Positions 4,358-54,000 of a stretch of 64,000 nt of DNA are shown piece by piece (positions within the stretch are counted from its first letter, which is position 1; each line of letters starts with the position of its first letter). The DNA is from Sabellastarte sp. h YS-2021 (Eukaryota; Annelida; Polychaeta; Sabellida; Sabellidae). The stretch is taken from contig OZ024930.1 of the NCBI GenBank assembly GCA_964017235.1, positions 153,264,221 through 153,328,220 on the forward strand, read 5' to 3'. The position numbers and the translations under genes were made by a program. Under the pieces are notes generated by a model. That model was not told the DNA's origin. It ran no database searches and was given only the letters and a program-made list of their open reading frames with translations.

Positions 4358-4461
4358 AGCATTAAGTCCCACATGGTAAGCTATTGTAGCGTAATAAAAT
4401 TGAAAATTTTAATTACTTAAATGTAGCTTTTATAAGCTACAAGCTTACCATGTGGGACTTA
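4358..4461 (+). repeat. DIRS copy 1 internal complementary region
   Basis: Two joined halves meet near 4400. The second half (to 4461) is the reverse complement of the element's right end at 4651-4711, nearly base for base, including AAGCTTACCATGTGGGACTT. By the DIRS model the first half is the reverse complement of the left end, which is off window. This junction lets the two ends be restored from a circular intermediate. Confidence 0.85.
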
Positions 4462-4645
4462 GAAGAGTCCCACCCTGCCTCCCCGCTGTTTACAGCTGAG
4501 GAGTAGGTTTTTAGAAAATTTCAACGAGAAAGTAGGGCGATTGGTCAGAAGTTATCACATGACGACAACTACCAGTATATCCGGTGGCTAACAAGAACGA
4601 TCTTTTTTTCTAAGACGTTGGCCCCAGGTGTGGCAACCCGAGAAC

Positions 4646-4716
4646 AGCATTAAGTCCCACATGGTAAGCTTGTAGCTTATAAAAGCTACATTTAAGTAAT
4701 TAAAATTTTCAATTTT
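4646..4716 (+). repeat. DIRS copy 1 right terminal repeat
   Basis: Starts AGCATTAAGTCCCACATGG, the same as the start of the internal complementary region, and continues as the inverse of its second half to about 4711. The exact end is uncertain by about 5 bases. Confidence 0.75.
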
Positions 4717-4826
4717 GTCCATTTGAAGTAACAATGCCTTTTGATTTTATGTGCAACCATATCATAAACTGTTTTTAAAATGTATGCACTTTACTACTGA
4801 TTGACCTGTTTAATATTAACATTTTT

Positions 4827-5772
4827 ATCCCACAGCCCTTAAAGGCTGTCGGGGTATTGTCTTCAGCGATGGTGTTCGGATGGGCGGGCAGCGGGAAAAA
4901 GTTTGTCCGGCCTGTATCTTAGAAACCATAATGTGTAGGAAGTTGATACTTGGTAGGGACATTGGTTAGGGGGTGTAGGTGTGTAACCTCATGGTGTGAC
5001 CTTGATTTGACCTTTGACCTTGCCGTTGTGACCTTGACCTATAAAATCTTGTCCGGGCTATATCTCGGAAACCGTAAGGTGTAGGAAGTTGATACTTGGT
5101 GGGGACATTGGTTAGGGGGTGTAGGTGTGCAATGTCATGGTGTAACCTTGATTTGACCTTTGACCTTGCCGTGATGACCTTGACCTATAAAATTTTGTCC
5201 AGGCTATATCTCGGAAACCATAAGGTGTAGGAAGTTGATACTGGGTAGGGACATTTGTTAGGGGTTGTAGGTGTGCAACGTCATGGTGTGACCTGGATTT
5301 GACCTTTGATCTTGTATATATGATGCTATTTTATCTCTCTACATGGATATGGGATACTATATTATCCATCTTATATCTCTCATATCTTTTTACTTGAATC
5401 TTGGTTGTTGCACCTTTGGGTGTCTTTTGATGTAGATTAAGCACTGTTAAAGTTATATTAGAATTCATTAAGGGTTTTACTTTTGCAACTTCCCATTGTA
5501 ACAGATGGTATTGCATCAAGTGAGTCACAGGTTTTGCTCCAACTCCACATATAAGCATGTATTGCCACATCTGTATGTATGGGTAATATTCAAAACATTC
5601 AAACCATAATTTGACAATACATAATTGTGATATTTTCATTGATAGCTATTCTCCAGTTAAGAAATTTTACAGCTTCATAACCACAATCTGTGTACTGTTT
5701 CACTACTTCTATATCTCATGGTGTTGAAAAATATTTTCCCAGGCTGTGGGGTACGGGCATCTCTGATGCTAT
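4827..5772 (-). mobile_element. Satellite-cored element, group A, copy 1
   Basis: Read on the minus strand it starts with TAGCATCAGAGATGCCC near 5772 followed by TACCCCACAGCCT (5753-5741). It continues with a unique stretch, then tandem units containing AAGGTCAAAGGTCAAATCAAGG (about 5320-4960), and ends in a hairpin (4849-4832). The same plan occurs in two plus-strand copies at 14048 and 15397. No coding capacity; movement would need proteins supplied from elsewhere. Confidence 0.7.
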
Positions 5773-5822
5773 TTTTATTTATAAATTACATTCAAATATG
5801 TAAAGTGTGAAACTTGTCCTAC

Positions 5823-6064
5823 CTGGTGCAAAAAACAGCAGGTACAGTATTAACCCAACCATAGACATCCAGGCAAATGGGGTGGGACAATAGTCATAAG
5901 CCCAGGCTAGCTTTCCAGGCAGCTCCGTTGTGTTGCATCGGCCACCCTTTGAGTTGATGTAGTTATCATACAGTGATGGGAGGCAGGAACCTTGCAGTGG
6001 ACCATTGGCAGAATCCAGGTAACAGTACCCACAGTACAAGTCTTTCATACACATGTCACAAGTT
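5823..6064 (-). CDS. SLC2A13: HMIT exon: Cys-rich exoplasmic loop and TM10
   Basis: 242 bp; acceptor TTTCTTTCAG just above 6064, donor GTAGGA at 5822. It enters in phase 2 (GG|A) and leaves in phase 1. It encodes a loop with seven cysteines in spaced pairs (CDMC, CGYC, a single C, C before NTT, then YC), a possible N-glycosylation site NTT, then the hydrophobic segment [14 protein letters not shown]. The loop and the CPTPFAW lead into TM10 are typical of HMIT rather than other GLUTs. The next exon in the gene direction is not in the window. Confidence 0.93.
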
Positions 6065-12000: not shown

Positions 12001-15000
12001 CAAAGGTGAGTTGTGTGAAATTTACTCTGTAAAACTCTTTCATTTTATCTGTTTATGCTTTACAAATAAATAAAAAAAGAGATTTTTTTTGTTTTCAAAT
12101 TGGTACATTCAACTTACTATAACTGACAGGTATAAAATTCATTCTAAATTGCTTTAGCATACTCTGTTTAACAGACATCCATTATTATATATTTTCTGCA
12201 GAAATCTCAGATAGCCGCCAAAACTTGAGAAAATCTAACTTGCCTCATGTTTCATATATGGAACCTGTTTTAATTTAAGAATTCAAAATTCCAATGAATT
12301 TGCTCTATCTCACACAATTTACAAGAAAAATGCAATTTTATAGCGCTGACTATAATTTCGCTATACATAACTGAGTTTTGTTTGTGACTTTAAGGTTATT
12401 GCAGAGTTAACATTTACTTTTAAAGTTATAATCTTTTATAGCAGTAACCCACTGTCTGCCACTGTGGCCTTGTGGGTAACATACATGGGAAAACAGAGGA
12501 CCTGGGTTTGATGACCACTTAAAATGCCTGTCCTCTGTCATTGGCTCCTTTCTCCAGTTGCAGGCTTAAGAATCTCAGGGACCCTGATAACTGGTCACCC
12601 CTTAGAGTTTACTTAGAGGAATGTCAGTCACTAGAGAGCCAGGACTTTACCTTGTGCAGTCAGGATGGGTGACAGAGCTTTGAGTCCTGTACTAGTAAAG
12701 GAGATATTGTGCTAAGTATAAATATACAATACAGTACATAGCTGTTAAGTCACCATGGTGGAGAATCTCTCATGAGTTTAAGGTTACCTTAAGTTAGCAC
12801 ATGTTTCTTCCGGTGGTGTATGCATACCCATGTACTACGGTAAATATGAATGAAATCTATTCAGTCACTTTTGAACATTAGCCACCAGAATTCACTAGAA
12901 ATGAGTTTCTTTTGGGACTTTCAGGTTACCATAAAGTAAGGATCTCACTGAGGTCCAGCTGACCTACGTAAAAAATATTTTGAAAAAATATGAAAACATG
13001 ACACATGCAAGTAAACATAGGCTGCATTTTAGAGATGGGAGACAATAAACAGTTATAAAAATTTGCTCTTAAAAAAATATAAAAAAAAATTATCAACAGC
13101 TTTTTTCTTGGACAACAGCATACATGTGTCACTAGTTCCAATAATAATGCAAAACTAAGATTTAATTACAAAGAAAAAGGCCAAGTATTTTATCAATGTC
13201 ACTCTGGAGTGTTGGTCATCAACTTTGTTCACACTACAACATTTTAATAAATGTTTAATAAATTGAGTTTGTTATATAACTCGAAGATAATGTAGATGTA
13301 CAGTATTAAAAACTTCAAAGGTCAAAGTTTGGGTTTTACATCCTGCTAAACAGCCAGGGTCATATTGGGACAAGTCCTCTGAGCATTGTGGGAGTTGAAC
13401 ACACAGAGGTGACAGCCTGCTAACCCACTAGGCCTCAGAGAACCATCTATTGAAAACTTCAAAGCTTTATACTTGTCCCATTTGAAATACAGCACTCAAC
13501 CTCGCCTTACCTTCCATCTTTTATAAGCAGAAAAAAAGACCTACAAAAGCTACTGAGAACAAGAAAAGTCATTTTACACAGTCATCCTTGGGATTTTTAG
13601 TTTGTTTTGAGAGGAACAACAAATATGAAGCACTCGTGGCTTCCATGACTTTGGGATATGGGGCATAAGACAGCTTAATGACTCTGCTTTAGCTGTCAGA
13701 CAGGCTCTAATTTGCATCAAGGTTATATTTATCTTGACCTGCTGCAGGCAATATTCAAATTAAGAGGACACATGGTGCAGAAGAAATATCTGGTCCTACT
13801 TTATGTGGTTTCATTTTATTGTATTTACACTCTTTCACAAACTGATATTCATAAACAATTTTATTGATATATTGAGACAATGAAACATAAAATACAATGT
13901 GATCTGTATCAGGAACATAAAGTATGCTTCCAAAATTTTGAGGCAGAATAAATCTAAATAAGTCACTCTAAAAGTTTCCCCTGTAAACATCAAACTTACA
14001 CATGAGGCTGTAGTGTGACTTGATCAAGGGATCTTATTTTTTTATAATAGCATCGGAGAAGCCCATACCCCAAAACCCAAAGATATAGTTTTCAATAGCA
14101 TGATACATAGAAGAAGTGAAACAGTACAAATATCAGGAGACTTTTACAGCAAACAATGTTAGTTATATGAAGGTCAAAATAATGTTAGCACAGAAAATAA
14201 CATTTAAGACAGAAAATGTCTGTTAAATTATGAAGCTGTAAAATTTATTAATTGAAGTATAGGTACCAGATATAGCATAATTAAATAAATGTACATAAAA
14301 TAATAATCAGTTACAGCAATCCATATACCTTTGTCATAAGAGAAATCTGTCTCAATTATGGCAGGTGAACACACCTTGGCAGAGCCATGGTAGAATATCA
14401 CACCTGACTTAGCATACCTCTATTCCATAACCAATGACCCATACAAAAATAAACTTTCTACACGTTACAGTTTCTGAGATAGATATGGCCCAAACAAGAT
14501 TTTATGGTCAAGGTTACAACAACAAGGTTAAATCAAGGCTGTTGCTCACCTACACTCTCTGACTAATGTCCCTAACAAATGTCAACTTCCTACACCTTAC
14601 AGTTTCCCAGATATAGCCCGGACAAGATTTTTAAGTTCAAGGTCACTATGGCAAAGGTCAAATCAAGGTAATGCCATGACATTGCACACCCAAACCTCTT
14701 AACGTATTTCCATAAAAATCAACCTTTTACACCTTACAGATTGTATTATACAGTCTGGCAAGATTTTAATGGTCAAGGTCACTACAGCAAGGTCAAAGGT
14801 CGAATCAATGTGACACCATGAAGCTGCACACCTACACTCCCTAACCAATGTCCCTACCATTAAGTTTCAATTTGTTACACCTTACAGTTTCTGAGATATA
14901 TTCCAGAAAAGCTTTTCAAACTCAAGCTCACTATGGCAAGGTCAAAGGTCAAATCAAAGTCACACCATGACGTTGCATATCCACATCCCGACTGATGTCC

Positions 15001-18000
15001 CTATCAAGTATCACTTCCTAAACCTGATATATGGCCAGGACAAGATTTTCAATGTCAAGATCACTATGGCAAGGTCAAATCAAGATCACATCAGGTTACA
15101 CAACTACACCCCCAACCAGTATCCATACCAAGTTTAGACTTCCTACACTTTATGGTTTCTGAGATACAGCCTGGACAACTTTTTCCCACTGCCCACCCAC
15201 CCACCAATCTGGACGCCATGGGTGAAAACAATACCCTGACAGCCCTTAAGGGTTGTGAGGTAAAATGATATACATCTCTTATCACTCACATCAAAAATAT
15301 CATCTTGAAGAACAACATAATGACTTAATTTGGTATAATAGTTTGACGTGATGAGAACAGAATATGTTGAGTATAAAAGATATCCAATTCTAAGTACAGC
15401 ATCAGAGATGCCCATACCCCACAGCCTGTAGAATAGCATTAAACACGATGAGATATAGAAGAGGTGAAATAGTCTAAAGTTCTGAAGACTTTCAGAATAG
15501 ACGGTGTAACTTTTGTAGAGGTGCAGGAGAAAATAACATAATAATTATACAAGACCAAATGTGTAAGGACAAAGTATCAAGACACAGCAATTCACTTGCA
15601 AGATGACAGCATTAATTAGTACACTAAAACTTATGAAGGTGTAAAATTTCTAAATTGAAGTCTTAACTGTCAAAGGAAATAGTACAATTAGGTAAAAATA
15701 CATATAATAATGAGTTGTAGGAATCCATTTATCTCTGTGATATGTTTCAAATATGGCAGCAGAAAACATTTTGGCATGGCCAAAGTCAAACATTAAACCA
15801 AAGTCACACCAAAATATTACACACCTACATGCCCGCACAATCCTACAAAGTATCAACTTTGTATAACTTGTGGTTTAACAATTACTGTGGCAAGGTCAAA
15901 AGTCAAATCAAGTTCACAGCATGATGTTGTACACCTACACCCACAAACTAATGTCCCCACCAAGTGTCAACTTTCTACACCTTACGAATTCCTATATAGC
16001 TCAGACAAAATTTTAACGGCCAAGGTCACTGTGGCAATGTCAAAGGTCAAACCAATGTTATACCATGATATTGCACACCGACAACCCCACCCAATGTCCC
16101 TACCAAGTATCATCTTTCTAAAACTTATGGTTTCCCAGAAATAACCAGGACAAGATTTTAAAGGTCGAGGTCCCTTCAGCAAAGTCAAATCAAGGTCACA
16201 CCACATTGTTGCACACTTACAATCCCAGCCAATGTCCCTTCCAAGTATCAAACATCCTACACCTTACCGTTCATGAGATATGGCCCAGACAAGATTTTCA
16301 AACTTGAGGTCACTACGGCAAGGTGAAAGGTCAAAACAAGGTCACACCATGACACACACCTCCAACCTCCAACCAACGTCCCTAACATGTATCAACTTCC
16401 TACACCTTACAGGTATGAGATACACCCCCATACAAGATTATTGTTCCTGCCACACATGCGCCAAGCTGGAAGCCTTAGGTGAAAACAAGACTCGCACAGC
16501 CTTTAAAGGCTATGGGGTAAAATGGGTTAAAATATAAGTAAATTTTTAAGAAATATGATGTCAAAGCATATTCTTAAGCTTCATCAGTTGAAGCTATTCT
16601 ATGATGGAATATTATGGTTTACAAAAACATTTGGGATGGGAAGAAACATGTGTGTACCACAGTTCAAATTAAATGGCAACAAGCTGCTCAACCAATATTA
16701 AAAACATAAGACCAAAAGCTTTTTCTTGAGAGATCTAATGTTGGCCTTACTGCAGGAGCGAGTTGGAAGTTTTTTACAATTAAATGGAGTTGCCTGGGTG
16801 AAATACCACATTTCAGATACAGAGCTTTGTATCTGGATCCCCAAATTTGATTTATTATTGGGCTGAAATTCTACTTTTCTCATTTCTTAGAATTCCTAAC
16901 AACTAAGATGAAATTTTTTCTCAAAACTGTTTTTCTGTATTTTAGTTTAATGGTAAGTTCATATTTTTAAATTTAATTTTTCAGTTTTTGGAAACTATAT
17001 GCTACCAGAATGTGATAATGCTGTTCATTTTCTCAACTCACCACAGTTTTAAAGAGGTAATAAATGTAAAGTAAATAATATGGGGTTCTATTTTAACTGC
17101 TATGTAAGTCTTTATAAACATGGGTAGGAATGGAATGAAACATTCATTAGCTGATTAGCCACTTAATTTTATCTTGAGCAATTATTGATGGCATGCAGGT
17201 GTATGTTATCTTGCTATAAAAAAAAACAGGTTGATTAAGCAAGAAACTAACACAGCAGAGACATGGAATTTGGCTTCTGTGAATGTTTACAATGCAAAAC
17301 AATTTTTACATGGACCATTTATTTATTATATACAACTTTCTTGAAGCAAGAAATGACACTGTGAATAAGCCCTTCTATATCCAGATCACAAACATCCTTT
17401 TAGAAAAGTTAAATTGTGAAAAGGTGAAGTTGTGCCAATCAAAGTAGAAGGGTAACAATGTTAACTTCAAACTAACTTTCCTAACATAACACATTTATCA
17501 GCATACCTGTCTAAGCAAAAATATATTAAACAAACCCCACTAAGTTTGTTACTAGGGGTGTTGAATTTTTATTTTTGCAGATGTTTTAACACTTATTGAA
17601 TATTCTCCTAAAATAAAACTTCTAGTTCTCAACAGACGTACTAATGGTTTATGAATTTTAAAAATGCTAGGTGCTTTACAGAACAAAGATCTTTCTTATA
17701 GTTTCTCCATATTAATAGCTATGAGTTATTGACAGTTTTCACACTGGTTCCATAAAAGTTAATGGAATGTGACATCATAAAAATTTAATGAATTATACCT
17801 CCAGATAGCAATTATCTTGAATTGCTTACTGCACACATAAGGAATCCAGAAAATGAGTTCTGTACCTCAAATAGACCTCAAGAGCCAGGCTGCTAATTTG
17901 TTTTCTTGATTTGCAAACAGTTATAGATCAGTTGGAATCAAATTTCTTGTTTTTCACAGTTATGCTTTAACAACAGATGCTAATGAATGAATTTCATTGA

Positions 18001-36000: not shown

Positions 36001-39000
36001 TCAACTCAAAAGTGATTTTTCCCGTTATGGAATTTAGTACTGAAAAGTCAGAAAGTAGCTATTACTCACTTCACTATTGGGATAGGCTCCCAAGCTACTC
36101 ACCATGTTTTAGCTATGGAAAATGTATCTGAACAACATATTTTAACAAAATGCTCCAAATGCAATACTTGTCAAGTTATAAGTGATTTATTGCATGAATT
36201 CATGAAATTTAATGCATTAAAATTATTTTAAAAATTCATTAAAAATAATAAAGAAAGATCCAGGCCTAATACCCACACAAGGTAATCTAGTTGTGGCTTA
36301 GTACATATGTGCAAGAGAAGAGACAAATCGCTTTAACAGTCAATGAGAAAAGTGTGACATTTCAGGTAGGGATACCTCGCTTGTAATGGCTCTTGGAAAC
36401 AGACAAAAAATACAGATATGCATGCCTTGAACACTTTTTCATCATTGATAGAGATAGATAATGTATCTTTTAAAAGAAACAGCATGTCTATGGGCCTTGT
36501 ACTTTTGGAGGAGAAATTGTTCACATGGATGCCAACGCCACAGAGTGATGCCATAATGTCCGGTGATTGACAAGTCAGCTGACATAAAAACCAGACCATG
36601 AAAATATTTTCAGATTATGGAGTAACAATGCAAACGGCCATCTAAGACCTTCTATTTACTTCTACTTGGAAGGTAATACAACTGAACAGAGTTCTACATA
36701 AATAGTTTATACTGATTTAAAAAAATAGACAATGTGTCTCAACACAGACCATCGACTGATGAATATCAGACAACACACGGCAAGTTAAACCTTACATTCT
36801 ACACAAGAAGCATGGAATATAATCAACTACGGTTAAAAATCACATGAGCCATTATCATAAATATCTTCGCCAGCTGCTACAAAAACAAAATAGCTAAAAG
36901 GGCTATACACATCTCCCATCAATATCCTTGAATTATTACAATTTCCAGTGATACCATGTCAATACATCATCGCATGCATCAGTCTATCAAAACATGATGT
37001 AATACCCTCCTGGTCTATTTTAAATCCTTAAGGCATCTTCTTTTTGTAGTGTGAAAGCTTAGTGACTAAAAATCCACTGGTAGCTTCAAAGCTTCCATTA
37101 CCATCAATTTGACTTATTGCAACATCATAAATAAGGCGACTATTCATATAATAGGGAGACATATTACTTAACAAAAATTTAAGCAACTAATAGACAAGGG
37201 AGATACACAGAATTTATGGTAAGTCCACTCTGTTTGACCATGAAATGGGATTAAATATTAAATCTTATCCCACTAAAATACTCACAGCCAAATAATGGCA
37301 ATGATTTCCAGTTTTCTTTCCAGATATTCCAGACTATTTTACCAAATGATACAGAGATAGAATCTTGGGTAAGTTGACTCAGGTTGACTTTGAAACATGG
37401 GTCAAATGTCAAATCTGAGACCACCAAAAGATTCACAGTCCCTGAAATCCTAAAAGTTGTTTCTACATTTGAAACTCCTTGGATCAAATAAAGGGGAGAT
37501 AAAACTAGACCTAGCGCATCGGAGAACCGATGCAAATTGTATCCACCGTAAAGACAATGCACCAAAACCTCTAGGACCAATAATAAGCGAGTTATAAGCA
37601 CTTTTAAGTTTGGCTGTCCTCATTTGACCTTCAAGGAGGGGCCCAAGGTCAAATCCGACCACACCAGAAGATTCCCAGAACATGATTTCCTATATGTTGG
37701 TTTACTATCCCAAACATCTAGGACCAATAATAAGCGAGTTATAAGCACTTTTTAGTTTGGCTGTCCTCACACTTGACCTTGAAGGAGGGGCCCAAGGTCA
37801 AATCCGACCATGACAGAAGATTCCCCGCCCATGATTTCCTGTATGTTGGTTTACCATCCCAAACCACTAGGATCAATAATAAGCGAGTTATAAGCACTTT
37901 TAAGTTTGGTTGTCCTCATTTGACCTTGAAGGAGGGGCCCAAGGTCAAATCCGACCACACCAGAAGATTCCCAGCCCATGATTTTCTATATGCTGGTTTA
38001 CCATCCCAAACCTCTAGGACCAATAATAAGCGAGTTATAAGCACTTTTAAGTTTGGCTGTCCTCGTTTGACCTTGAAGAAGGGGCCCAAGATCAAATCCG
38101 ACCACACCAGAAGATTCCCAGCCCATGATTTCCTATAGGTTGGTTTACCATCCCAAACCTCTAGGACCAATAATAAGCGAGTTATAGGCACTTTAACCTT
38201 TGGCTATCCTCGTTTGACCTTGAAGGAGGGGCCCAAGGTCAAATCCGACCACACCACAAGATTCCCAGCCCATGGTTTCCTATACATTGGTTTACCATCC
38301 CAAACCTCTAGGACCAATAATAAGCGAGTTATAAGCACTTTTAAGTTTGGCTGTCCTCATTTGACCTTGAAGGAGGATGCCAAGGTCAAATCCGACCACA
38401 CCAGAAGATTCCCAGCCCATGATTTCCTATATGTTGGTTTACCATCCCAAACCTCTAGGACCAATAATAAGCGAGTTATAAGCACTTTTATGTTTGGCTA
38501 TCCTCGTTTGACCTTGAAGGAGGGGCCCAAGGTCAAATCCGACCACACCAGAAGATTCCCAGCCCATGATTTCCTATAGGTTGGTTTACCATCCCAAACC
38601 TCTAGGACCAATAATAAGCGAGTTATAAGCACTTTTAGGTTTGGCTGTAATCATTTGACCTTGAAGGAGGGGCCCAAGGTCAAATTTGACCACACCAGAA
38701 GATTCCCAGCCCATGATTTCTTATAAGTTGGTTTACCATCCCAAACCTCTAGGACCAATAATAAGCGAGTTATAGGCACTTTTACCTTTGGCTATCCTCG
38801 TTTGACCTTGAAGGAGGGGCCCAAGGTCAAATCCGACCACACCAGAAGATTCCCAGCCCATGATTTCCTATATGCTGGTTTACCATCCCAAACCTCTAGG
38901 ACCAATAATAAGCGAGTTATAAGCACTTTTAAGTTTGGCTGTCCTCATTTGACCTTGAAGGAGGGGCCCAAGGTCAAATCCGACCACACCAGAAGATTCC

Positions 39001-42000
39001 CAGCCCATGATTTCCTATAGGTTGGTTTACCATCCCAAACCTCTAGGACCAATAATAAGCGACTTATAGGCACTTTTATCTTTGGCTATCCTCGTTTGAC
39101 CTTGAAGGAGGGGCCCAAGGTCAAATCCGACCACACCAGAAGATTCCCAGCCCATGATTTCCTATATGCTGGTTTACCATCCCAAACCTCTAGGACCAAT
39201 AATAAGCGAGTTATAAGCACTTTTAAGTTTGGCCGTCCTCATTTGACCTTGAATGAGGGGCCCAAGGTCAAATCCGACCACACCAGAAGATTCCCAGCCC
39301 ATGATTTCCTATATGTTGGTTTACCATCCCAAACCTCTAGGACCAATAATAAGAGAGTTATAGGCACTTTTACCTTTGGCTATCTTCCTTTGACCTTGAA
39401 GGAGGGGCCCAAGGTCAAATCCGACCACACCACAAGATTTCCAGCCAATGATTTCCTATATGCTGGTTTACCATCCCAAACCTCTAGGACCAACAATAAG
39501 CGAGTTATAAGCACTTTTAAGTTTGGCTGTCCTCGTTTCACCTTGAAGGAGGGGCCCAAGGTCAAATCTGACCACGCCAGAAGATTCCCAGCCCATGATT
39601 TCCTATATGTTGGTTTACCATCCCAAACCTCTAGGATCGATAATAAGCGAGTTATAAGCACTTTTAAGTTCTGCTATCCTCGTTTGACCTTGAAGGAGGG
39701 GTCCAAGGTCAAATCTGACCACATCAGAAGATTTGCAGCACATGATTTCCTATAGGTTGGCTTCACATTGCAAACCTCTAGGACCAATAATAAGGGAGAT
39801 ATAGGCACTTTTAAAGTCCGCTATGTGGGTTACTTCGGCACTCCGTGGATGACCTTGAATTAGGAGCTTCAAGGTCAAATGTGTGCAAGGTTGTAGAGGA
39901 CATGTATATGTGTCATATATATCACCTATGAAGAGATTCAACCTTCTACCTATGAGGAACAGCCAGTACAAAAATGTAGATTATTTTCAAAGAAATGCCC
40001 GTGGCGGCCATCTTGTTTTTCAGAATGAGGCTATTTTCCTTCCCAGAGAAGCTTACCTCCCAATGAAGATATCCTGCAAATTTGGTGAACCTAGCTGCTG
40101 TTGTTTTCCTCTTAGAGCGTTAACGCCGAAAATCTCTCTACGCGCGGCGGCGGCGTAGCGGACGCTAAACCAAAGTATCCACCGGATGCTTCCGGTGGAT
40201 ACAATAACTCACAAACTGGGATAACCTGTTTCTTGTTTGCCAACATGTCTATCTTAGGATGGTGCCACTGTTCACAGATTTTGTCAAACATCTCCTGAAG
40301 GAGTTACCATTCTACCTGAATAATCTGCCTGCCTAGGAATAGCATAAATTCTACAACCATAGACAGCCTGGAATGTGACAGATTCTCAGAATAATCTGTC
40401 TGAAATTGTATCATAATTGGAGTCTCTAAAACAGGACACAGAGAGATCCTGACCTCATACTGCCCTCTTTGTTTATGTAGGAGACAATCATGGGGTGTCT
40501 GTTGCATCAAAACTGTCTGGCCTGAACAAAACTTTTTTAGGGCTAGTAGGACTGCCAAGAAGTTCCTAAAAATTTATGTATAACATGCTTGCTGGAACTG
40601 ACAAGATGTCTTTTGTTGTGTGAGCACTGAACCTTTGCTTCATGCATCTGGAAAGATTTGCCACAAGTGCTGAACAGAATGTAGAGAATGGCCAGGAATG
40701 ACATTGGCTTCCTCTAGCTAACCATTTGAAGTGCATATAGAAATAGAAATCCTTGTATCCAGTGGCTCTGAAATGTGCCAGTAATTTCTGAGATGCCATT
40801 GAATTGGTCTCATGTGAAGATAGCCTGATGGCAGTTGCTTCTCTGCAGTAGTCGGAAGAGGTATTTGAGACACCAGTTGTTTGACTGAATAAACTGGTTT
40901 CTCCAGAAGGGATGTTGTCTTTGTGTTTAAGTCCTGCTACCTGTATGTGGTGGGTCAGGCCATCCCTTCTTCTAGGTTGTATTAGTTGCCTACAAAGTCA
41001 AACACTTATTTGAGGACCACTTCTGACTTTTGAATGTTCAGACTTCCTTAGACATGGCTAACACGAACCAGTCATCTAAGTACCAGTGATTTCTTATATC
41101 CCTTGCCCTGAGCTGTGAGTTTCACTTCTATTACTATGATTGTGAATTCCATGGGGGCTGTTGAAAGTTCATGGGCAGAGTCTTGAACTGGAAAGTTTAA
41201 CCTTGTTAATAGAATCTTAGGCACATTTTTGACTGATAGAGATGTGAAAGTAAGCGTTTGGATCGGAAAAGGCCTGTCCTAAAAGGCCAGGCAGGATTGA
41301 ACGTTGACCTGTTCTAAGGCCTGCTTTCGTAGGAAAGAATGCAATGCTCTCTACGGGTAGCTGTTCCTGAGGGCTTGGCATATTAGCTCTAAATGAGAGG
41401 CTTTATTTTAAAAGGAAGGTTGTAGCCCTTTTTAAAAATCAAGACCACATTTAAGACTCAAACACTGGGTTGTCTAGGCTTGACAAAATATCTGCAGCCA
41501 GCCTCCCACGGGGAGATTTGTTAAACACTGGGGACATTTGGCATAGGAAGAACACATTCTGATAGATTTGTAAAAGAAACATTGTTCAAATGCTTTATTC
41601 TATTCTGTGCATGATCAGGGCTTAGGACTGTCATTTGCAGCTGCCCCATACAGTAAGTGCAGGAGTTGCAACATGTTTTAAGTTTGCAGAACTTTGAATA
41701 ACATGGTCTACTTGATTTACAGACTTTAAATTGATTTTTGGAGTCACATCTAATATGAACTTATCCTTCACATTATTGTCTACAGAGTTCATAAAAGAAA
41801 AGTAATTGTCCTTTAAATGACTGCGCCCCTCACCTCCCCCCAGTACTCAGGCACTCTTGCCTTTGCCTCTTGAAGGATGGCTAGTACTCTTGAAAAACGT
41901 CCAAGCAAAGCCTTCAGCCTGCTGACTTAGTGGCCACTAGACGACTCTTGGCTGTGTGATTGCTGATGAGAACCTGATGTGTGGTAAGGTTGGTAGTAGT

Positions 42001-45000
42001 TACCCTTCTTATGACCAATCCTTGCTGAACCTGATGTTGGTTTTGGGGATACGGTAAGCAATCTGTTCATATTTGGCAATGTCATCATCTACCTGCCTAA
42101 GGGCTGCATGGGGAAAGCCCAGAAAGCTTGACTGGTGTGTTACACTAGGCAGACCAGTTGATCAGCTAAATGCTGGATTTAAGATGCTCCAGAAAGGAAT
42201 CTCTGCGCTCAAGGTAAAGTTAGCCAGTTGCACAAACATTACATCTGCCAAATGTTGGACAAATTTTCACATACTATAAGCCACTTCTTTGTTAAAGGCT
42301 GTCAAATCACATAGTTATCCACAACCTTCTGTGTTTGGCTTTAAAGATTTTCCTGTATGAAGCTCCTGCCAGTCTGCTAAGATAATGGTCTGCACATGGG
42401 AGGACAAGACCTGTTCCAGATGGCTTGTCAACTTGAGACTAACTTATGGTTTATAGTCTCCAGTTTTATGACATAACCAGTCTTACAGGGCATGTCCAAA
42501 ATATTTTCCCAACTGGCTGTAATATCTTTAATAACCATAAAATTCCAGGACAAGAAATTATGTGACCAACCCATGAAAGCTCTAACTACCCAGACTCTTT
42601 CCCTGCAGACTATCTATACCTCAGGCAGCAATTTATCAGAGTTCTGATTCAGTTCCTGTTCTGAACTGGGCTTTCCCAGTAATCTGACCCCTCCATGCAG
42701 GGGAGTTAGGTCTACCGACAAACACAGGCTTCTGACGAAAGTTTGTTCAGACGAGAAAACAATATCTCATGTCTGTTGACCAATGATTGAAAAAAATTAT
42801 CCAAAGTTATTATAATCATTACACTACTTCAGCTGAGTCGGAAATGGTAGGACCAGAAACACTGACAAAATCCTTACATGGAATTCTGTAGCAAAGAACC
42901 ACTAAAACTAGAGGATTGCTTGCAAAAAAAAAAGATAATGTTTTTGCACAGCAAAAACAAAGTGTCCCGAAAAGGATATAAAGTTGAGTGCTAAAGTATT
43001 AAGAAAATGCTCTACTTCTAGCCTTATACTGTTGTGGCAACCAAAGTCAGCGTAGTCTGCTCTGTCTAGCACAGTTTTCAAGATATAAGCATTTTTTGTG
43101 TTTTACAATTTTTGAAAAATATTCGAAAATTCAAAATGGCCGTCATTTTTGGCGAGACAAAAATTTTTTGAAAAGTGGGATGACTACTCTGTACAGATAC
43201 CCTGTGATTCAAAAATTTCGTCAAAATGCCTCTATCTAGCACGGTTTTTGAGATATAAGCATTTTTGTGTTTTGCAATTTTTGCAAAAAATTCGAAAATT
43301 CAAAATGGCCGTCATTTTTGGCGAGACAAAATTTTTTTGAAAATTGGGATGACTACTCTGTAGAGATACCCTGTGGTTCAAAAATTTTGTCGAAATCCCT
43401 CTATCTAGTACGGTTTTCGAGATATAAGCATTTTTGTGTTTTGCAATTTTTGCGAAAAATTCGAAAAGGCCGCAATATTTGGCAAGACAAAAATTTTTAG
43501 AAAATTGGCATGGCTACTCTTCAGAGATACCCTGGAGATCAAAATTTCGTTGAAATCGCTCTATGTCGCATGGTTTTCGAGATATAAGCATTTTTGTGTT
43601 TTGTAATTTTTGCGAAAAATTTGAAAATTCAAAATGGCAGCCAATTTTGGCGAGACAAAAAATTTTTGAAAACTGGGATAGCTACTCTGCAGAGGTACCC
43701 TAAAGGGTCAAAAATTTTGTCGAAATCGCTCTATTTAGCACGGTTTTCGAGATATAAGCATTTTTGTGTTTCGCAATTTTTGCGAAAAATTCGAAAATTC
43801 AAAATGGCCGCCATTTTTGGCGAGACAATTTTTTTTTTGAAAACTGGGATAGCTGCTCTGCAGAGATAACCTGGGGGTCAAAAATTTCATCGAAATCGCT
43901 CTATCTAGCACGGTTTTTGAGATATAAGCATTTTGTGTTTTCCTTATTTGGAAAATTCATAATGATTAATTAATCATTAATTACTCGGCCATTTCTTAAC
44001 CAATCAATGCCAAAATCTAATGATTTCCAGATTTTAATAGAATGAATGTATTTGCCAAGTGTCAGGTGAATTGATAAAATTCCTTTCAAGTTATCATCCG
44101 GACAAGCTTACCCATCGAAAAAAGACATTTTTGGTCATGTGACCTCTCTGATTGGTCGAAATATCACTGCAGCATATTCAAAAAAATTCCCCAGGGTTAC
44201 TGCATACACCTGCCAAATTTGAAAAGAATCCACCCAACAGTCAAAGAGTTATGAGGAAAGAAAATGCGGAGCTCACGGAGCGGGGGGAGCCAAATACCCT
44301 CCCATATACAAACAAGCGTCCCTTGCGGGACGCTTAATAATTACCAGCAGTTGAATGTTTTTCAAGAAAAACATCTCCTGTGAGAGGGTGCAGTGAAGCC
44401 AAATCATAACTGGTAAACCCAGCAAACACTTAATAGACATGACTAGCACATGGTCTCGTTGGTGATGATGTAAGAGATCTCGTAATTTGCCAGGCAGGGG
44501 TGAAAGAAAATCCACAGTAATATTAATAATAAGTCTTCATGAAGTATAAAGTAACATATCTGCCTCTGCCAAGGAGGTTTTGTTTCTAGTGGAGTTCATT
44601 AGTCTGACTGTATGTTTCTTTGTTTGTTTGGAAAGTAACTCAAAAAGTTATGGACAGATTTTGATTAAATTTTCAGGAAATGTTTTTTTTAATGGTACAA
44701 AGTACATATAACTTGTTTTTAGTGGTGATCTTGTTCACCATTTGTATCCCGGAATTTTTAAGAGGATTTTTTATCATTGCACTCATAAACAATAGTTGCA
44801 GTGTTGTGGGAAGTATGTTCTCTATGAGCTATCTTGTCTGTTATGTAATTCCAATGGACTATTGTAATTCAGATAATTACAATGGAAATCAAACATGACA
44901 TATGACTTGTATGCATAAAACTGAACACCATAACACTGATTGCGATGCCATAAGACTGATTGTGGCGCCATAACAATGATGGTAAACTCTTTCATCCTTT

Positions 45001-48000
45001 TTATGCCTCAGATTCTAGGAATTATTGGTAATATTGTTCCAACTTTGATAATACACAGACACCTTGAGGCAATTACAAGTGTGATGGCTCAGCTACTAAA
45101 AACTCAATATAAGTCCATAATTCTTATATCTGGCCAGGGTCTTTGTAAGAATTAGAAATAAGATATTGCAATAAAAAATAAATGTCAAATTATTTCTCTT
45201 GGAATTATGTAAAATTCTAATCTACTCTGATTCTAATTCTATATTTCATGGAATTTGCTTTATTTTCTTACCCTTTAGGGGTACAACTTGGGGAAAAAAC
45301 TCAGTTGTGAGAAAGCTTTTCAATGACTCTCCCAATTTTTTTCCAGACATTTTACTGACTTAAAGTTCTGATAAGCAAATCTGGTGGAAGATGTAAACAA
45401 ATTTATTAAAATAAAATATAAAATGTCAAAACAAAAGGAAAGGAAAAAGGAAAATTATCTCAAAAATAGTAATTAGGTGCATATATAAACAATATTTTAA
45501 CAGTTTTGTGAGTCTCGGTGCAGTAGGAAATATTCCTGAAAATCACCCCCAGGATGTTCTAAGACTTTTTTCTCCCCTCGCTCACCCCTGTGAAATCCCC
45601 CCCGCCCCCCTCAGTATTCTGTACTTTAATGTAACCAAATAAGTCAATTACATACAATTATTTATTTTTCCCTTCTATGAAACCATTAGACATATGAAAA
45701 TGGAGGATTTCCATGGAGGAGGATTTTGTGATACACCAGATTCCATCAACTCCAGGAAGTAGTCACTGGCCTCCCATTCTCTGCGGCCAGTTAGTTACAT
45801 ATTTTACATATCTTGATGAATTCTAATTTCTTATACCAGTTTAAACTTTAAATCTTGGACACTTTTAATTTGCACACATAGACATTAACACAAGTCAGGG
45901 CCTGTATCCACAAAGAGATCTTAAGTCTGAGACACAAAATTGTCTCAGATTTGAGATTTGGTCTCAGCTGAGACCAAGTCTCAACTTTGTATTCGCAAAC
46001 AGGTTCTCAGCTGAGACCAAACTGAGACCAGTCTCAAGTCTTTCCAATGTAAACAAACCCTATACTTGCAAATATAACCAACATTTTTTTAAAGATGAAA
46101 AGTGTTTGTGTGTTTTAATTCTTCACAAAAATTATACTGTCTATTAAAACTAGAAATAGGCCGCCCTGTTGATAGTAGATGCGAATAGAAACAGGATAGC
46201 ATAGAAGAACACACATTATCATGTGTAATGTCCACCCATGAACCTTTTGCCCAAATTGTACAGTAGTCTTACAAGACCCTGTTTCATTTGTAAAATATAT
46301 CAATGATGCTTAAATATTTGTTAGTGTAGATGTAAATAATTTCAGCTTCATGCCTTTTTGCATTGGTTGGGTTGAAAATTTTGACGAAATCACTCTATCT
46401 TGCACGGTTAAGAAGAAGCAAATTCCTGTTTTTCTATTTTTGGCAAAAATTTGAAAATTCAAAATGGCCGCCATTTTTGGGAAAAGGAAATTTTTTTGAA
46501 AATTGCCAAGAGTACATTTCTTAGATACCCTATGGGTCGAAAATTTCAACGAAATAACTCTATTTTGCACGGTTAAGGCCAGTTTGTGTTTTTCCATTTT
46601 GGGCAAAAATTCGAAAATTCAAAATGGCTGCCATTTTTGGGGAGGGGAAAATTTTTTGAAAATTGCAAAGATTACATTCCTTAGACACCCTGTGGGTTGA
46701 AAATTTCGACGAAATCGCTCTATCTCGCATGGTTAAGGAGATAGAAGCAAATTTGTGTTTTGCCATTTTTGGCAAAAATTCGAAAATTCAAAATGGCCGC
46801 CATTTTAGGGGAGGGGAAATTTTTTTTTAAATTGCCAAGAATACAATGCTCAAATACCTGTGGGTCGAAAATTTTGATGAAATCGCTCTATCTCGCATGG
46901 TTAAGGAGATAGAAGGAAATTTGTGTTTTGCCATTTTTGGCAAAACTTCGAAAATTCAAAATGGCCGCCATTTTTGGGGAGGGGAAAATTTTTTGAAAAT
47001 TGCAAAGATTGCATTCCTTAGATACCCTGTGGGTCGAAAATTTCGACGAAATCGCTCTATCTTGCACGGTTAAGGAGATAGAAGCAAATTTGTGTTTTGC
47101 CATTTTTGGCAAAAATTCAAAAATTCAAAATGGCCGCCATTTTTGGGGAGGGGAAAATTTTTTAAAAATTAACAAGAGTACAATGCTCAGATACCCTGTG
47201 GGTCGAAAATTTTGACGAAATCGCTCTATCTCGCACGGTTAAGGAGATAGAAGCAAATTTGTGTTTTGCCATTTTTGGGGAGGGGAAAATTTTTTAAAAA
47301 TTAACAAGAGTACAATGCTCAGATACCCTGTGGGTCGAAAATTTTGACGAAAACGCTCTATCTCGCACGGTTAAGGAGATAGAAGCAAATTTGTGTTTTG
47401 CCATTTTTGGCAAAAATTCGAAAATTCAAAATGGCCGCCATTTTTGCGGAGGGGAAAATTTTTTGAAAATTGCAAAGATTACATTCCTGAGATACCCTGT
47501 GGGTCGAAAATTTCGACGAAATCGCTCTATCTCGCACGGTTAAGGAGATAGAAGCAAATTTGTGTTTTGCCATTTTTGGCAAAAATTTGAAAATTCAAAA
47601 TGGCCGCCATTTTTGGGGAGGGGAAAATTTTTTGAAAATTGCAAAGATTACATTCCTTGCATACCCTGTGGGTCGAAAATTTTGACGAAATCGCTCTATC
47701 TGGCACGGTTAAGGAGATAGAAGGAAATTTGTGTTTTGCCATTTTTGGCAAAAATTCGAAAATTCAAAATGGCCGCCATTTTTGGGGAGGGGAAAATTTT
47801 TGGAAAATTGCAAAGATTGCATTCCTTAGACACCCTGTGGGTCGAAAATTTCGACGAAATCACTCTATCTCGCACGGTTAAGGAGATAGAAGCAAATTAG
47901 TGTTTTGCCATTTTTGGCAACAATTCGAAAATTCAAAATGGCCGCCATTTTTGGAGAGGGGAAAATTTTTTGAAAATTACCAAGAGTACAATGCTCAGAT

Positions 48001-51000
48001 ACCCTGTGGGTCAAAAATTTTGACGAAATCGCTCTATCTGGCACGGTTAAGGAGATAGAAGCAAATTTGTGTTTTGCCATTTTTGGCAAAAATTCGAAAA
48101 TTCAAAATGGCCGCCATTTTTGGGGAGGGGAAAATTTTTTGAAAATTGCAAAGATTGCATTCCTTAGATACCCTGTGGGTCGAAAATTTCGACGAAATCG
48201 CTCTATCTTGCACGGTTAAGGAGATAGAAGCAAATTTGTGTTTTGCCATTTTTGGCAAAAATTCGAAAATTCAAAATGGCCGCCATTTTTGGGGAGGGGA
48301 AAATTTTTGGAAAATTGCAAATATTACATTCCTTAGATACCCTGTGGGTCGAAAATTTCGACGAAATCGCTCTATCTCGCACGGTTAAGGAGATAGAAGG
48401 AAATTTGTGTTTTGCCATTTTTGGCAAAAATTCAAAATGGCCGCCATTTTTGGGGAGGGGAAAACTTTTTAAAAATTGGCAAGAGTAGAATTTTGAGATA
48501 CCCTGTGGGTCGAAAATTTTGCCGAAATCGCTCTATCTCGCACGGTTAAGGAGATAGAAGCAAATTAGTGTTTTGCCATTTTTGGCAAAAATTCAAAAAT
48601 TCAAAATGGCCGCCATTTTTGGGGAGGGGAAAATTTTTGGAAAATTGCATAGATTGCATTCCTTAAATACCCTGTGGGTCAAAAATTCTGTCGAAATCGC
48701 TCTATCTCTTACGGTTTCTGAGATATTAGCAAATTACTCAAAAGTAGTACTGAAAATACACAATGAAGTACCTAAATGGCTATTACTCATGTACTGACAA
48801 AGCTATCAGTCCCAAATGCAATACCAAGCGAGCTATGGACATAACAATCTTGTATTCAAAATTGTAGTAAAATATCTTTAATTATTTTGGCTTAAATGCA
48901 CGGAAACCAATGGGTACTGAAAATAGCTGTACTTAAGTATTACTCAGTAAGCAAAAGAGGTACAACAGCCAAAAGCAATCCCAAGCAAGCTACTGACCCA
49001 ATAAGCCTGCATACCAAATTTGGTGACAATAGCTCTAATACTTTTCCTTTAAATGAGCGGAAACCATGCGTGACGCCGGACATCGGACGCCGGACATCGG
49101 ACAACGGACATCGGACGGCGAAAAAAGCAAAAATAATATATCCACCCCCCAGGGGGGTGGACATAATAAAAATATAAATAAAACTAAAATAGAAAATTGT
49201 GTCAGTTGTTTTTTTATTTTGCATGTCACATGATCTACTTCTTTGTTGCTATGCAGTCAGAAAAAACTGCTGAAAAGTGTCTCAAATTAAGGTAGTTTTG
49301 GAACCAAAATTTGTGCTATCAGTTGTTTAAAAAGATTAGGCCAAGTATTATATACATTATAAATTATTTCTACTTTACCTTAAGACATACAAAGTAAAAA
49401 TATGTACCCCAGTTAAGATGAAATAATGCTTGAGACTTTTACCAAAATGTTTGAGACAACTATGTACCAGTCTTAAGTTTGAGACCAAATCTGAGACTAA
49501 ATTTGGTCTCAACTATTTTGTGAATGGCTAACAAGTCTGAGACCAAAAACAGTCTCAGATTTGAGATCAAAACTTAAGACTCGAGACAAAATTTGGTCTC
49601 AGCAAGTTTTATGAATACCGGCCCTGGTGCCCATATCCAGCAGGCTTATGGGAAATCCCCAAAAGTCCAAGTTATTTCTCATGCTTTCCTACACACAAAG
49701 ATATTACATGCTCTCCTGTTAACCAAGATCTGTCCTAGTGTCTTATATGAATGCATTATAACTCCAAAACTCACTGACAGTGAGAGAAGATCTTGAGTCT
49801 CTCGAACATGCAAACATTTACTATTTCTCTCTGCTGTGATTGTGTACTGGTGTCTTCTAATGTAAGAATTCAGCCCTGGATCCAGTGGCTTACAGAGCCA
49901 TTCCAGAATTTCAGGAAATTATTGAGGGTGATATGTGCACAAGGACATTTCAGAATGTACTTACATGACAGTGTTGATTCCAGTTAGCTGCTGAATCATC
50001 TGCAGACTACATCCAATTAACAAGGCTCTTCTGACAGAGGGGGTTTTCAACATCTTCCAGATCACTAAGGAGTCTTCTGTTAAAATTAGAAAACAGAATA
50101 AAATTAGAGGATTTCTCTGCTTAAACTCTGTAAGAGTATATTTTTAAAGCACACTAGTCAGATACCTGCAAATACAGTAAAGCTCTGTTTAGTGTAATCC
50201 AGAACGACCATTAAAATACATTCACTTACCCTGAATTTACAGATATCAGGAAAAATGTCGATGCGAACTAAGGAAGTGACTTTATTAGAAATATGACACT
50301 AGGTATTTGTCTTGAAAGAACCGATTCAGATTTGGGTAACTACGTTTTAATTGTAACCAACTGGAAGTGCCAGAGAAGCAAGCATGGCAGATGATGTATT
50401 ATTATTATTATGTATTTATACTCGGCGCAATATCTCCATATACTACAGGACTCAAAGCGCTATTTAACCAATCCGACTGTACAGGTACAGCCCCAACTCA
50501 CAAGTAACTGACATTCCCCTAACTGGAAGATAGAGGCTCAAGGATGACCATTTATCAACGTCCTTGAGGTTCTTTAACCTGCCACTGGGGATAGGACCCA
50601 ATGACAGAGGCACTATGTATCTGCCTGTACCTGGGATTGAACCCACGTCCTCTGAGTTCCTAGACAAGTGTGTTACCCGCTAGGCCACAGTGGTAAACAA
50701 AATGTTATGGAAATTAATGTTAAATATCTGTATAAGTAAGGAAAATTATGTGAAAACTAATATCAGGTAGAAAAATTTGACTAAGGTCTACCCAAGTATT
50801 TTATTGATTTACACAACAAAGTTCACTTTAAAGAGATTTCTACTAGGGAGAGTTGTACTCATTGGGGGTTAATTTGCATCTAATGGACACAGAATTTACA
50901 TCTACTTGAGACTACAAATTATGCTACAAGTTTTGCTTTTGCAGGAGTTTTATTGTATTTACTTAGATGAATCAAATATCTACAATTCATTTGGATGATT

Positions 51001-54000
51001 TTCACTCTAATATATTATGATAAATATATGAAAGTTGAACAATTCATCTGACATGTAATAAACTGCATCACAGGATAGTTTTACTAACTTGAAATCTTTA
51101 AAATGGAATTCCTTTTTATATAAATGTAATACCAAATCATGCGAGGACCTTTGTTATTAAAATTTTCACTGTTGTCTTTATCCTGGGTTAATAAAAATTT
51201 TTTTAAAAGTGCACTGACATTCAACTTGACAGGACTTAACTATGCTATGATTTCCCAGTTTTTTCATGAACAAATAAAGAGAATATTCATCACACTGCTC
51301 AAAATGCTATAGTTATTTTAAGAGTACATTATGATCTCAAATAAAGAGGTTCCACTAGCTAATTCAAACCTGGGAAAAACTAATGCACTCCTTACTTGTA
51401 TTACCACATTATGATCCTAACATATGCAGCTCAATGAACTGAAGATTTGCTGGAACTGAACCCCTGATATTCCAGTTACACAACTAAAACTTTTACCTAT
51501 TGATCTGAAGGTAGATTAACAGAAGAGCTCAGACAGGTATATGTTGTATTGAATGTGGATGACCATTACAAACACTATGTTGTCTTTAAATTCTTACTTG
51601 AGTCCATTTGATTTTGATCTTCTTCCCAACATGTCTGCTTGATGGTTTCAAACTCTTCTTCAATATCTTCTGAACCACGGATCTTCTGCAGAACCTGATT
51701 ATAAATTCAACAATTATTTAATTTTTTTTCAGACAATGTAAGTTATGTAAAGGTGCAAGAGAAATAACATTTAAGAAAGAGAAAATGTATGTGCAGACAA
51801 AGTAACAAAACAAGACGATAGCAAAATAAGAGGATTTGGACCAGACAAAGTTGGCAGCTGCCGCCACCCAGTCAAACTATATTGGTGAAACAATACCCAA
51901 ACAGCCTTTTGGCTGTGGGGTAAAAATTGAAGTTTTTGTATTTACTGGCGCCCACTACTACGGAAAAGTCTCCTAGTTCATTCTCTGTGGAATGAAAGTA
52001 CTTTTTAAGGTAAATAACTCAGTGTACTTACTATTCAAACAGAGTCACTGATAATAAATGTAAATAGCCCTGGTGAAGGATATTTTAAAATGCTATCACT
52101 CAAAAAGACATCAAAAAAAACTTTATCATCATACAAATTTGGATGCTACTTTTTTGTTTTGTCTTTATTCTTGATAAAACTTAAACATGTATATCATTAG
52201 TGAATTAGGGAAACTGAATCAGTGCCAAAGTGCCAAAAATTTGCAGGGATTTTGCAAAATCACCCAAATTTGGCTCACCAAATGCCTCAATACTTGCCTG
52301 ATGCCTTTTACATTATTTCAAATGTTACAAATAATGTTGGATGTGTTATATGTCTGAGAATTAAACGTTTTCATCAAACTTGTATACTACTGTAAGGTTT
52401 ACTGTAAGGTTTTCGCCGTCTGAAGTCCATAGGCAACCTTTTGAGTCAGTAGCAAACCATGCATTACCTTGCGAGTTCTATGGAAATTTTAAACTGTTTA
52501 AAATTTCCGCCTCTGATTTCGGTACCGTGAGCATGCGCATATGAATTTCTTTACTAAGGTTACTGGAGGTGTGGTCCACGGTGTATATAAGGTTGTGATT
52601 CGGTCATCTGTCGGTGTAATATGGCGACATAAGGCGAGTTAAGGTATTGCTTGTTTCAGCTGACAGCTACCAAAGGAGAGTTAAGGTTGCTTCACGGTGA
52701 CAGATGGTTAAAACACTGTGTCCAATCAGTGGCCGTCCGCCTGTAGTGTGAACAACTCATACAAAATGGGGTGACTGGGGGGGGGGGGGGGCGGTTCTGC
52801 CGCCGAGAAAAACTTCTAACCGTGGGACAACTGCCTGTAGTATGAAAGGGGCATTAGGACCTGATCCAATATGATTGTACCTGCTGACAGTGATGTAAAA
52901 CCCCATCTTTAAATCTTTGAATATTGTGTAGATATAAGTCTTGGTTTATTTGAATGTATTGTTTTATGTTTAAGGAATGTATTGTATTATGTTTAAGGAA
53001 GTCTGGATTTAAATCATCTTTGAAGCTGTCTACACTGTGTAAATAAAACTCTTGGTATATTCAAATATTTTGTTTTAAATATAATGCTCAAGGATGTTTG
53101 TATTTACACCCTATAATCTTTAAGCTGTAAACAATGTGTAAATATAAGTCTTGGTAAATTCAAATGTATTGTTTTATATGTTATGTTTAAGGATGTTTGG
53201 ATTTAAATCTATCTATAAAGCTGTCAACACTGTGTAAATAAAATTTTTGGTAAATTCAAATATGCTGTTTTAAATATTATGTTCAAGGATGTTTGGATCA
53301 TGAGGAGCACTTTTGGTGTGTGTTTCAGTAACTTTTTGTAAACTCTTCACAAACTCTTCTTCCCCAGATTTTCCTTAAAGTTGGGTATAGTTGAATAATG
53401 CTCCAATAGTGGTGACAAGGTTATAAGTACCAGAAAACTGTGATACTCTTCTATACCAAAGATAGTATAACAATCAAGTAGTAATAGCCAGCTTTAGTAG
53501 GCAAGAAGCCCAGCCCGCAGGAACAGCTAAATGAGCAACAACATTGTGATTTGGTTTTAGGATGAACCCACTTGACCTTGAAGCAGGGTTCTAGCTTCTT
53601 TTAGGGTAAACATATCTTTTAAGTTGTTACTGTACATGGGTTTAGGCTGTGGAACACCCACAAGCTTTATGCTGCCGCCCCCCCCCCCCCCCCCCCCCTT
53701 CCCCCCACCATGGTCTGATGTCGCACAGGGTGACTATAACTCCAGCCTTCATGGGCTGGGGTTAAAAAAGAATGCTAGTCACTGTTGACTATTTCCCTGC
53801 TGTCACTAATGAGGATATTATCCAATTACACCAGTCTTAAAATTTATGATACAATTCAAAGGACACCGGCAGCTGTGGAGGTATTTCACACTGTCACTTT
53901 GTTCATTTGTTTGAATGAGATAATGTGAAAAACACTGTGTATTTTCAGTAAGTGGAAGCTACCCAGGTATAGTTTCAGATATTCTAAAGCAACAGGTTTC

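Follow-up and report, generated by a model that had tools for sequence, protein, structure and literature searches.

Satellite-carrying elements with a hairpin at each end in a Sabellastarte genome are very probably non-autonomous Helentrons

A stretch of 64,000 nucleotides of contig OZ024930.1 from the annelid Sabellastarte sp. h YS-2021 (the whole of it hereafter called the window) holds several groups of elements that share one plan of arm, array and hairpin. In an earlier reading made from the letters of the window alone (hereafter the sequence-only reading), these groups were proposed to form a superfamily of satellite-cored elements. The question raised by this locus is whether the plan belongs to a superfamily of its own or to a kind of element already described. 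The elements concerned, called E1 to E6, are very probably non-autonomous Helentrons (HINEs), a known kind of element, here mostly carrying satellites and, in E3, E4 and E5, showing an A|TT...CTAG end variant.

End plan of the elements

The five arm pairs reported earlier, one in each of E2 to E6, were all recovered, with matches of 12/13 (15415, 16507), 13/13 (37536, 40193), 9/10 (42960, 44326), 10/10 (46228, 49155) and 10/11 (53506, about 53753). The elements had been read backwards. The true polarity of E2 to E6 is that of the - strand, and E1, at the start of the range, has + polarity. What was called a 3' hairpin is the 5'-terminal hairpin, which holds the 5' member of a pair of asymmetric terminal inverted repeats (ATIRs), and the supposed 5' arm is the 3' ATIR. 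Read in their own direction, the elements start with the 5' terminus and a 5' ATIR that folds onto its downstream complement; body and satellite array, 3' ATIR, second hairpin and 3' terminus follow. The shared plan with arms that change from group to group is real; what had been overlooked is the second hairpin, which lies beyond the other arm, and where the elements really end on the 3' side. A satellite core had been assigned to every group, and Tandem Repeats Finder (TRF) finds no array in E6 (53484-53765).

A 5' ATIR, or subterminal inverted repeat (subTIR), of 8-15 bp that lies near the 5' terminus and forms a hairpin with downstream bases is present in E1 to E6 and in H1, an autonomous Helentron of the same genome described below. 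The 3' ATIR is subterminal and is followed by a 3' hairpin that is clear in E1 to E4 and modest in E5 (energy -2.8; H1, -3.6). By reading, the sequence of this hairpin is GCATCTCTGATGC in E1 and E2, GCATCGGTTCTCCGATGC in E3, TGTTTTTGCTGTGCAAAAACA in E4 and ACACATGATAATGTGT in E5. Also by reading, the TAGCATCGGAGA-like motif noticed earlier in some heads is, in E1, E2 and E3, this overlooked 3' hairpin (GCATC-loop-GATGC). The 3' terminus is CTAG in E3, E4 and E5, which contradicts the statement that no end shows the Helitron CTRR; by reading it is CTAT in E1 and E6 and CTTG in H1. The 5' TC of canonical Helitrons is not present, as E3, E4 and E5 start with TT, E1 with TA, and H1 with a T run and then AGG. 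Hairpins stand at both ends, unlike the single 3' hairpin of canonical Helitrons (Helitron1).

ATIRs together with a hairpin at each end already define Helitron2 (Bao & Jurka 2013, PMC3627910), and the plan is therefore not that of a new superfamily. The elements resemble Helitron2 also in the ATIR length of 8-15 bp, in a 5' hairpin formed from the 5' ATIR, in a 3' ATIR directly preceding the 3' hairpin and in insertion beside T runs; they differ from it in the endonuclease domain of H1 and in their satellite cores (PMC3627910). On this match with published Helitron2 descriptions, the reading as a new superfamily was rejected.

Termini, empty sites and arm pairing

One arm pair on its own proves nothing, because a loose structural detector returned 11-29 such structures per shuffled window (mean about 19; n = 30 shuffles, both strands), as had been cautioned for any single group. 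In the unshuffled window the + strand by itself yielded 71, many of them satellite-derived, and the loose detector was discarded as useless on account of its shuffled mean. A strict detector, requiring a perfect 5' stem of at least 8, an arm match of at least 9/10 and a second hairpin at most 8 nt away, returned three structures in the window; 100 shuffles gave 0.03 on average and never more than 1. The three in the window were E3, E4 and a pair at 4452/4651 that lies inside another inverted repeat; E1, E2, E5 and E6 fail the strict rules in the window scan, which catch only E3 and E4 of the six. The enclosing short inverted repeat (about 4390-4700, arms near 4422 and 4690) does not resemble a Helentron end and is perhaps a small inverted-repeat element.

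The reality of the arms rests on the copies, as genome matches begin at the predicted 5' ends of E3, E4 and E5. Forty candidates were scored per query, so that copy numbers are lower bounds. Identities were 98-100% for E3 (best 40 of 3285 candidates), 93-95% for E4 (best 40 of 3959) plus the window itself, and 96-100% for E5 (best 40 of 297), and 74 matches were obtained from the best 40 of 4253 candidates for E1. The match start lay no more than 12 bases from the predicted 5' end in 40/40 E3 and 39/40 E4 copies (the remaining one starting from query base 22) and no more than 10 bases from it in 40/40 scored E5 copies. At the other end, all 39 non-window E5 matches (best 40 of 336) stop at query bases 223-238, with CTAG ending at 219, and all 39 non-window E4 matches (best 40 of 2164) stop at 165-185, with CTAG ending at 163. 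In individual loci the 5' end lies at TTGTATCC in 30/30 cases for E3 and at TTAAGCG in 29/30 for E4 (the pattern missed L042), and the preceding triplet is TNA in 51 of 59 loci, with T at -3 in 57 of 59. The 3' end was reached in 7/30 loci of each family; CTAG is followed by TT in 7/7 for E3 and in the six E4 tails that were read, the seventh (L041) being cut at the end of the locus. Among 13 E4 copies examined with extended sequence, no 3' end was seen within about 3.9 kb in 11. Four E1-family copies read whole have a T run before them and terminate in GATGCTATT or GATACTATT. The ends are sharp, and no mismatch between true ends and arms was met: the 5' ATIR ends coincide, and the 3' termini lie 20-90 bases past the 3' ATIR, as the Helentron plan requires.

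One E4 copy (L046), which matches another (L052) at 98%, contains a second array with a 133-bp offset. From L046 and its extension L080 (about 1886-5117), some E4 elements seem to hold two successive arrays, the 169-bp satellite and then the one with the 133-bp offset.

Empty sites were sought at 21 flank joins after duplicate places had been removed, and matches spanning the join occur in the DNA examined for six. An E3 copy lying within an E4 5' end (L014) has a gapless junction in 30/30 matches and another within a different repeat (L028) in 1/1. The E4 copy L042, inserted within an E3-like satellite monomer, is gapless in 236 of 237 monomer matches; a further E4 copy (L055; E1-family body and a second locus) is gapless in 2/3, and an E1 copy in a T run (L006) in 2/2. 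The window E5 join is crossed by 40/40 scored matches (best 40 of 669 candidates), about 9-17 bases shorter than the query; in six aligned E5 empty sites the junction bases are gapless, with a gap of 11-12 bases a few bases upstream; the sequence there is AT-rich and the placement of the gap uncertain. A target duplication is needed in none of the gapless cases. Insertion at T-rich or TT sites without target duplication is accordingly documented by empty sites for E1, E3 and E4 and less firmly for E5, with none for E2 or E6. E1 and H1 lie in T runs, and E3 and E4 mostly at TNA|TT. Three E4 copies (L051, L059, L061) lie in the E3-like satellite on the same strand at near-identical monomer positions (24, 27, 27); L042 also lies in this satellite by its empty-site match, a possible insertion hot spot.

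These junctions bear on a second explanation, in which the elements would be miniature inverted-repeat transposable elements that move by cut and paste and have subterminal inverted repeats, the form in which pearl-like elements were originally described. The high copy number, the shortness of the inverted arms and the lack of a partner gene seen for E1 to E6 fit that description. The arms are asymmetric, one terminal and one subterminal, hairpins stand at both ends, the gapless empty-site alignments need no target duplication, and the partner found in the H1 family is a Rep-helicase-endonuclease (RepHel-endonuclease); on this evidence cut-and-paste elements are very improbable.

Complementarity of the two ATIRs was compared between families with one member each of E1, E3, E4, E5, E6 and H1, the arms having been chosen as pairs. 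Own-family matches between 5' and 3' arms sum to 65/72, a value reached by 1 of 720 pairings, the next best being 59 and the mean 32. The arms differ together between families, as had been proposed, and the result says nothing on how they changed. A chance origin of the arms, beside unrelated satellite arrays, could draw on the roughly 19 structures per shuffled window found by the loose detector. The arms coincide with the ends of copies at independent sites, which already contradicts chance for E1 to E5, and the own-family pairing was reached by that single permutation, leaving chance with a negligible probability. The elements are better read as HINEs, and the fixed plan with free arm sequence fits a model proposed for Helitron2 (PMC3627910), in which the 5' hairpin would be opened when the two ATIRs pair with each other. 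In computed energies (DNA parameters requested) the ATIR duplex lies below the 5' hairpin in 6/7 entries, the exception being E4; on these energies such a switch is possible.

An autonomous Helentron and its deletion derivatives

The profile PF14214 (Helitron_like_N) has 24 matches genome-wide, and both of the two places that were read belong to H1 (C3; loci L073, L071 and L072). H1 contains a 2245-codon frame with Helitron_like_N and PIF1 helicase domains and an endonuclease domain (Exo_endo_phos, PF03372, E 2.5e-06). Its inner 5' hairpin (of two) matches its 3' ATIR in 12/12 bases across 11.6 kb. The frame is broken in a second copy (L107), which aligns with H1 at 99% identity over 6.6 kb, and this alignment stops shortly beyond the 3' ATIR. 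The ~160 bases at the 3' extremity of H1 are present in 39/39 other scored places (best 40 of 1567 candidates), where matches start at query base 1 or 2 and stop at 161-179. The Rep-helicase gene frame itself contains a 63/126-bp tandem repeat (L107 7031-7837 and the corresponding stretch of L071), and the two copies differ there by about one 126-bp unit.

Three places were fetched where H1 5' and 3' matches lay close together. All three hold short elements that are H1 without its middle: the 5' part is 97-98% and the 3' end 99-100% identical, and the 164-bp array is retained. In two of the three the deletion starts at H1 position 2062, adjoining the end of the array (2055). Two tandem copies of a module of 5' hairpin and array are carried by H1 and by both derivatives that could be followed to their first 5' end, and the outer flanks differ. 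H1 keeps its array in middle-deleted short copies, and therefore, for the H1 family, the satellite-cored type of element is an internal-deletion derivative of a Helentron. Termini common to an autonomous Rep-helicase-endonuclease element were seen for this family.

By extension, the Rep-helicase-endonuclease proteins of autonomous Helentrons would move E1 to E6 as well. One strand would be copied by a rolling circle starting at the 5' end, the 3' ATIR and hairpin would serve as the end signal, and the element would insert beside T with no duplication of the target. The arm sequences, which vary between groups, and the two Helitron_like_N places read, neither of which carries a partner gene with E1 to E6 arms, could be used to argue for a separate superfamily of satellite-cored elements, so far undescribed, that has an enzyme of its own. 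The parts of the plan match the published Helitron2 and HINE plan, and the same genome holds an endonuclease-encoding Helentron with that plan and satellite-cored derivatives, and such a superfamily is accordingly unlikely.

Several observations weigh against the assignment to HINEs. A RepHel gene bearing E1 to E6 arms was not found in the 2/24 Helitron_like_N places read, and the outermost 5' arm of H1 (at 890) matches the 3' ATIR in 11/12 bases by reading. At 15 of the 21 joins a local empty site was looked for and none was found, and the window E2 join is gapless in 0/1. The left border of E5 is less firm, because of the upstream gap in its empty sites. TTTT precedes ATTATGTCC in 10/10 E5 5' ends fetched and TTTTAAT follows CTAG in 10/10 3' loci fetched (the tenth being L099); these constant flanks (TTTTA before, TTTTAAT after) could mean longer ends or a very specific target. 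In E6 the 3' hairpin is weak (-1.4), and among 50 matches only the window itself spans both halves. Covariation inside family E4 is weak: six copies with both ends have arm matches of 9, 8, 10, 7, 9 and 9 of 10, and one clean compensated case was seen among the six, a G-to-C change in the 5' loop base of L043 with the matching change in its 3' ATIR. As a separate observation on E6 (53484-53764), a 72-bp 3' end is common to many copies and other matches cover the 5' part alone, as if ends had been exchanged.

With these points set against the copies, junctions and H1 derivatives, what the sequence-only reading observed is partly confirmed and its interpretation partly supported. The positions of the elements are collected in Table 1. 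E2' and E2 (14046-16519, - strand) stand head to tail in the same orientation with about 130 bp between them, and TRF run on each alone finds no single repeat unit above 100 bp.

Table 1. Positions in the window of the elements read as probable HINEs and of related sequences; parts are listed in true polarity.
Element	Span	Strand	5' side	Repeats	3' side
E1, HINE	4826..5773	+	ATIR/hairpin from 4826	146-bp satellite 4903-5314	ATIR 5742-5753; hairpin GCATCTCTGATGC 5757-5769; terminal GCTATT
E2' (E1 family, not in the sequence-only reading)	14046..15262	-	ATIR from 15262		ATIR 14077-14066
E2, HINE of E1 family	15394..16519	-	ATIR/hairpin from 16519	~144-bp satellite ~15890-16440	ATIR 15426-15415; hairpin 15411-15399
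E3, HINE	37505..40204	-	TTGTATCC at 40204; hairpin 40202-40175	147-bp satellite 39814-37565 (15.3 copies)	ATIR 37548-37537; hairpin 37533-37516; CTAG end 37508-37505
E4, HINE	42908..44337	-	TTAAGCG at 44337; hairpin 44335-44314	169-bp satellite 43941-43059	ATIR 42969-42960; hairpin 42959-42939; CTAG end 42911-42908
E5, HINE	46150..49166	-	TTATGTCC at 49166; hairpin 49164-49138	microsatellite 49117-49072; 169-bp satellite 48735-46368	ATIR 46237-46228; hairpin 46226-46211; CTAG end 46153-46150 (or TTTTAAT further)
E1-family 5' end remnant	51731..51922	-	hairpin ~51922; body match 51731-51812		
E6, short, HINE-like	53484..53764	-	ATIR/hairpin from 53764	no satellite array	ATIR 53516-53506; weak hairpin; terminal GCTATT

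Known relatives and the satellites

The relatives suggested earlier, bivalve pearl elements and satellite-carrying non-autonomous Helitrons, point the right way. Published HINEs have subTIRs, repeats in their centre and a palindrome on the 3' side (Thomas 2014, PMC4067079; Vojvoda Zeljko 2020, PMC7492417), and the autonomous Helentrons of HINEs are described in PMC4067079. A close comparison by plan, as distinct from arm or satellite sequence, is Cg_HINE of Crassostrea gigas (PMC7492417), which likewise has a 5' subTIR with a complementary inverted repeat, a microsatellite near the 5' end (here in E5), a 140-180 bp satellite array, a 3' subTIR followed by a palindrome, and a T-rich site without target site duplication. 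Unlike Cg_HINE, three groups here end in CTAG with a target that is mostly TNA|TT, and sequence identity ties one autonomous Helentron to derivatives with satellite cores; for the oyster elements the link to autonomous Helentrons was called unresolved (PMC7492417). A literature search of titles and abstract openings, with most subscription papers and Repbase outside its range, returned no bivalve autonomous Helentron joined to satellite-cored derivatives. Helitron-related sequences are reported as a notable part of oyster genomes (PMC11136912).

Helentrons and HINEs such as DINE-1 (PMC4067079) share with the present elements the subTIRs near the 5' end, the 3' palindrome, the central repeats and, in the H1 family, an origin as deletion derivatives of a Rep-helicase-endonuclease element. 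E3, E4 and E5 differ from these in having 5' TT and 3' CTAG, as reported for proto-Helentron-Pi of Phytophthora (PMC4067079). The Fusarium Helitron2 elements FoHeli1 and FoHeli2, for which TNAT targets are reported (PMC5148889), have ATIRs and two hairpins and insert at TNAT|T or TNAT|A, sites resembling the TNA|TT of E3 and E4; unlike the present elements they are fungal and end in ATTTT, and a satellite core is not mentioned in the available part of that paper. Bivalve pearl elements (Gaffney 2003), compared by description only, are similar in that short conserved ends flank a central array, itself short, of ~160-bp repeats.

The satellites had been called unrelated, which is not right as a whole: those of E4 and E5 are one satellite (alignment score 382 against a shuffle maximum of 36). 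A GCTTATATCTCG-like box is common to E1, E3, E4 and the array upstream of H1, a combination reached by 0/200 shuffles at widths 12 and 16 and by 7/200 at width 20. In the set E1, E3 and E5 no such box is present, the value being reached by 101, 41 and 83 of 200 shuffles at widths 12, 16 and 20. Blocks of 45 bases are related between the monomers of E1 and H1 and the 5' region of E4, with 27, 30 and 31 of 45 bases matching; each value was reached by 0/200 shuffles, for pairs picked after inspection, and L046 was the source of the E4 region. To the eye, the supposedly unique 5' bodies of E4 (L045-L048) and E5 (48736-49130, - strand) resemble decayed monomers at ~150-170 bp spacing beside a young array.

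Common descent of all the satellites is not proven. The tandem modules of 5' hairpin and array, the related 45-bp blocks and the GCTTATATCTCG-like box are grounds for a tentative suggestion: the satellites may descend from one module just inside the 5' hairpin of autonomous Helentrons, as opposed to being random cargo, with rolling-circle copying of repeated 5' ends as their possible engine. A model for tandem arrays in which multiple 5' ends are combined with a single 3' end is reviewed in PMC12628747.

The elements are ordinary in kind, and this assignment is well supported; the additional value lies in the link from an autonomous element to satellite cores and in the CTAG ends. The window families show Helitron-like A|TT...CTAG ends on Helentron-type structures. 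One genome contains both an open-frame autonomous Helentron bearing an array and short internal-deletion elements, and H1 with its derivatives makes the origin of satellite cores and the role of ATIR pairing directly testable. If the satellites do descend from such a module, repeated 5' ends with one 3' end in rolling-circle copying would make and spread satellite DNA, and the ATIR pair would be free to change sequence provided that pairing persists.

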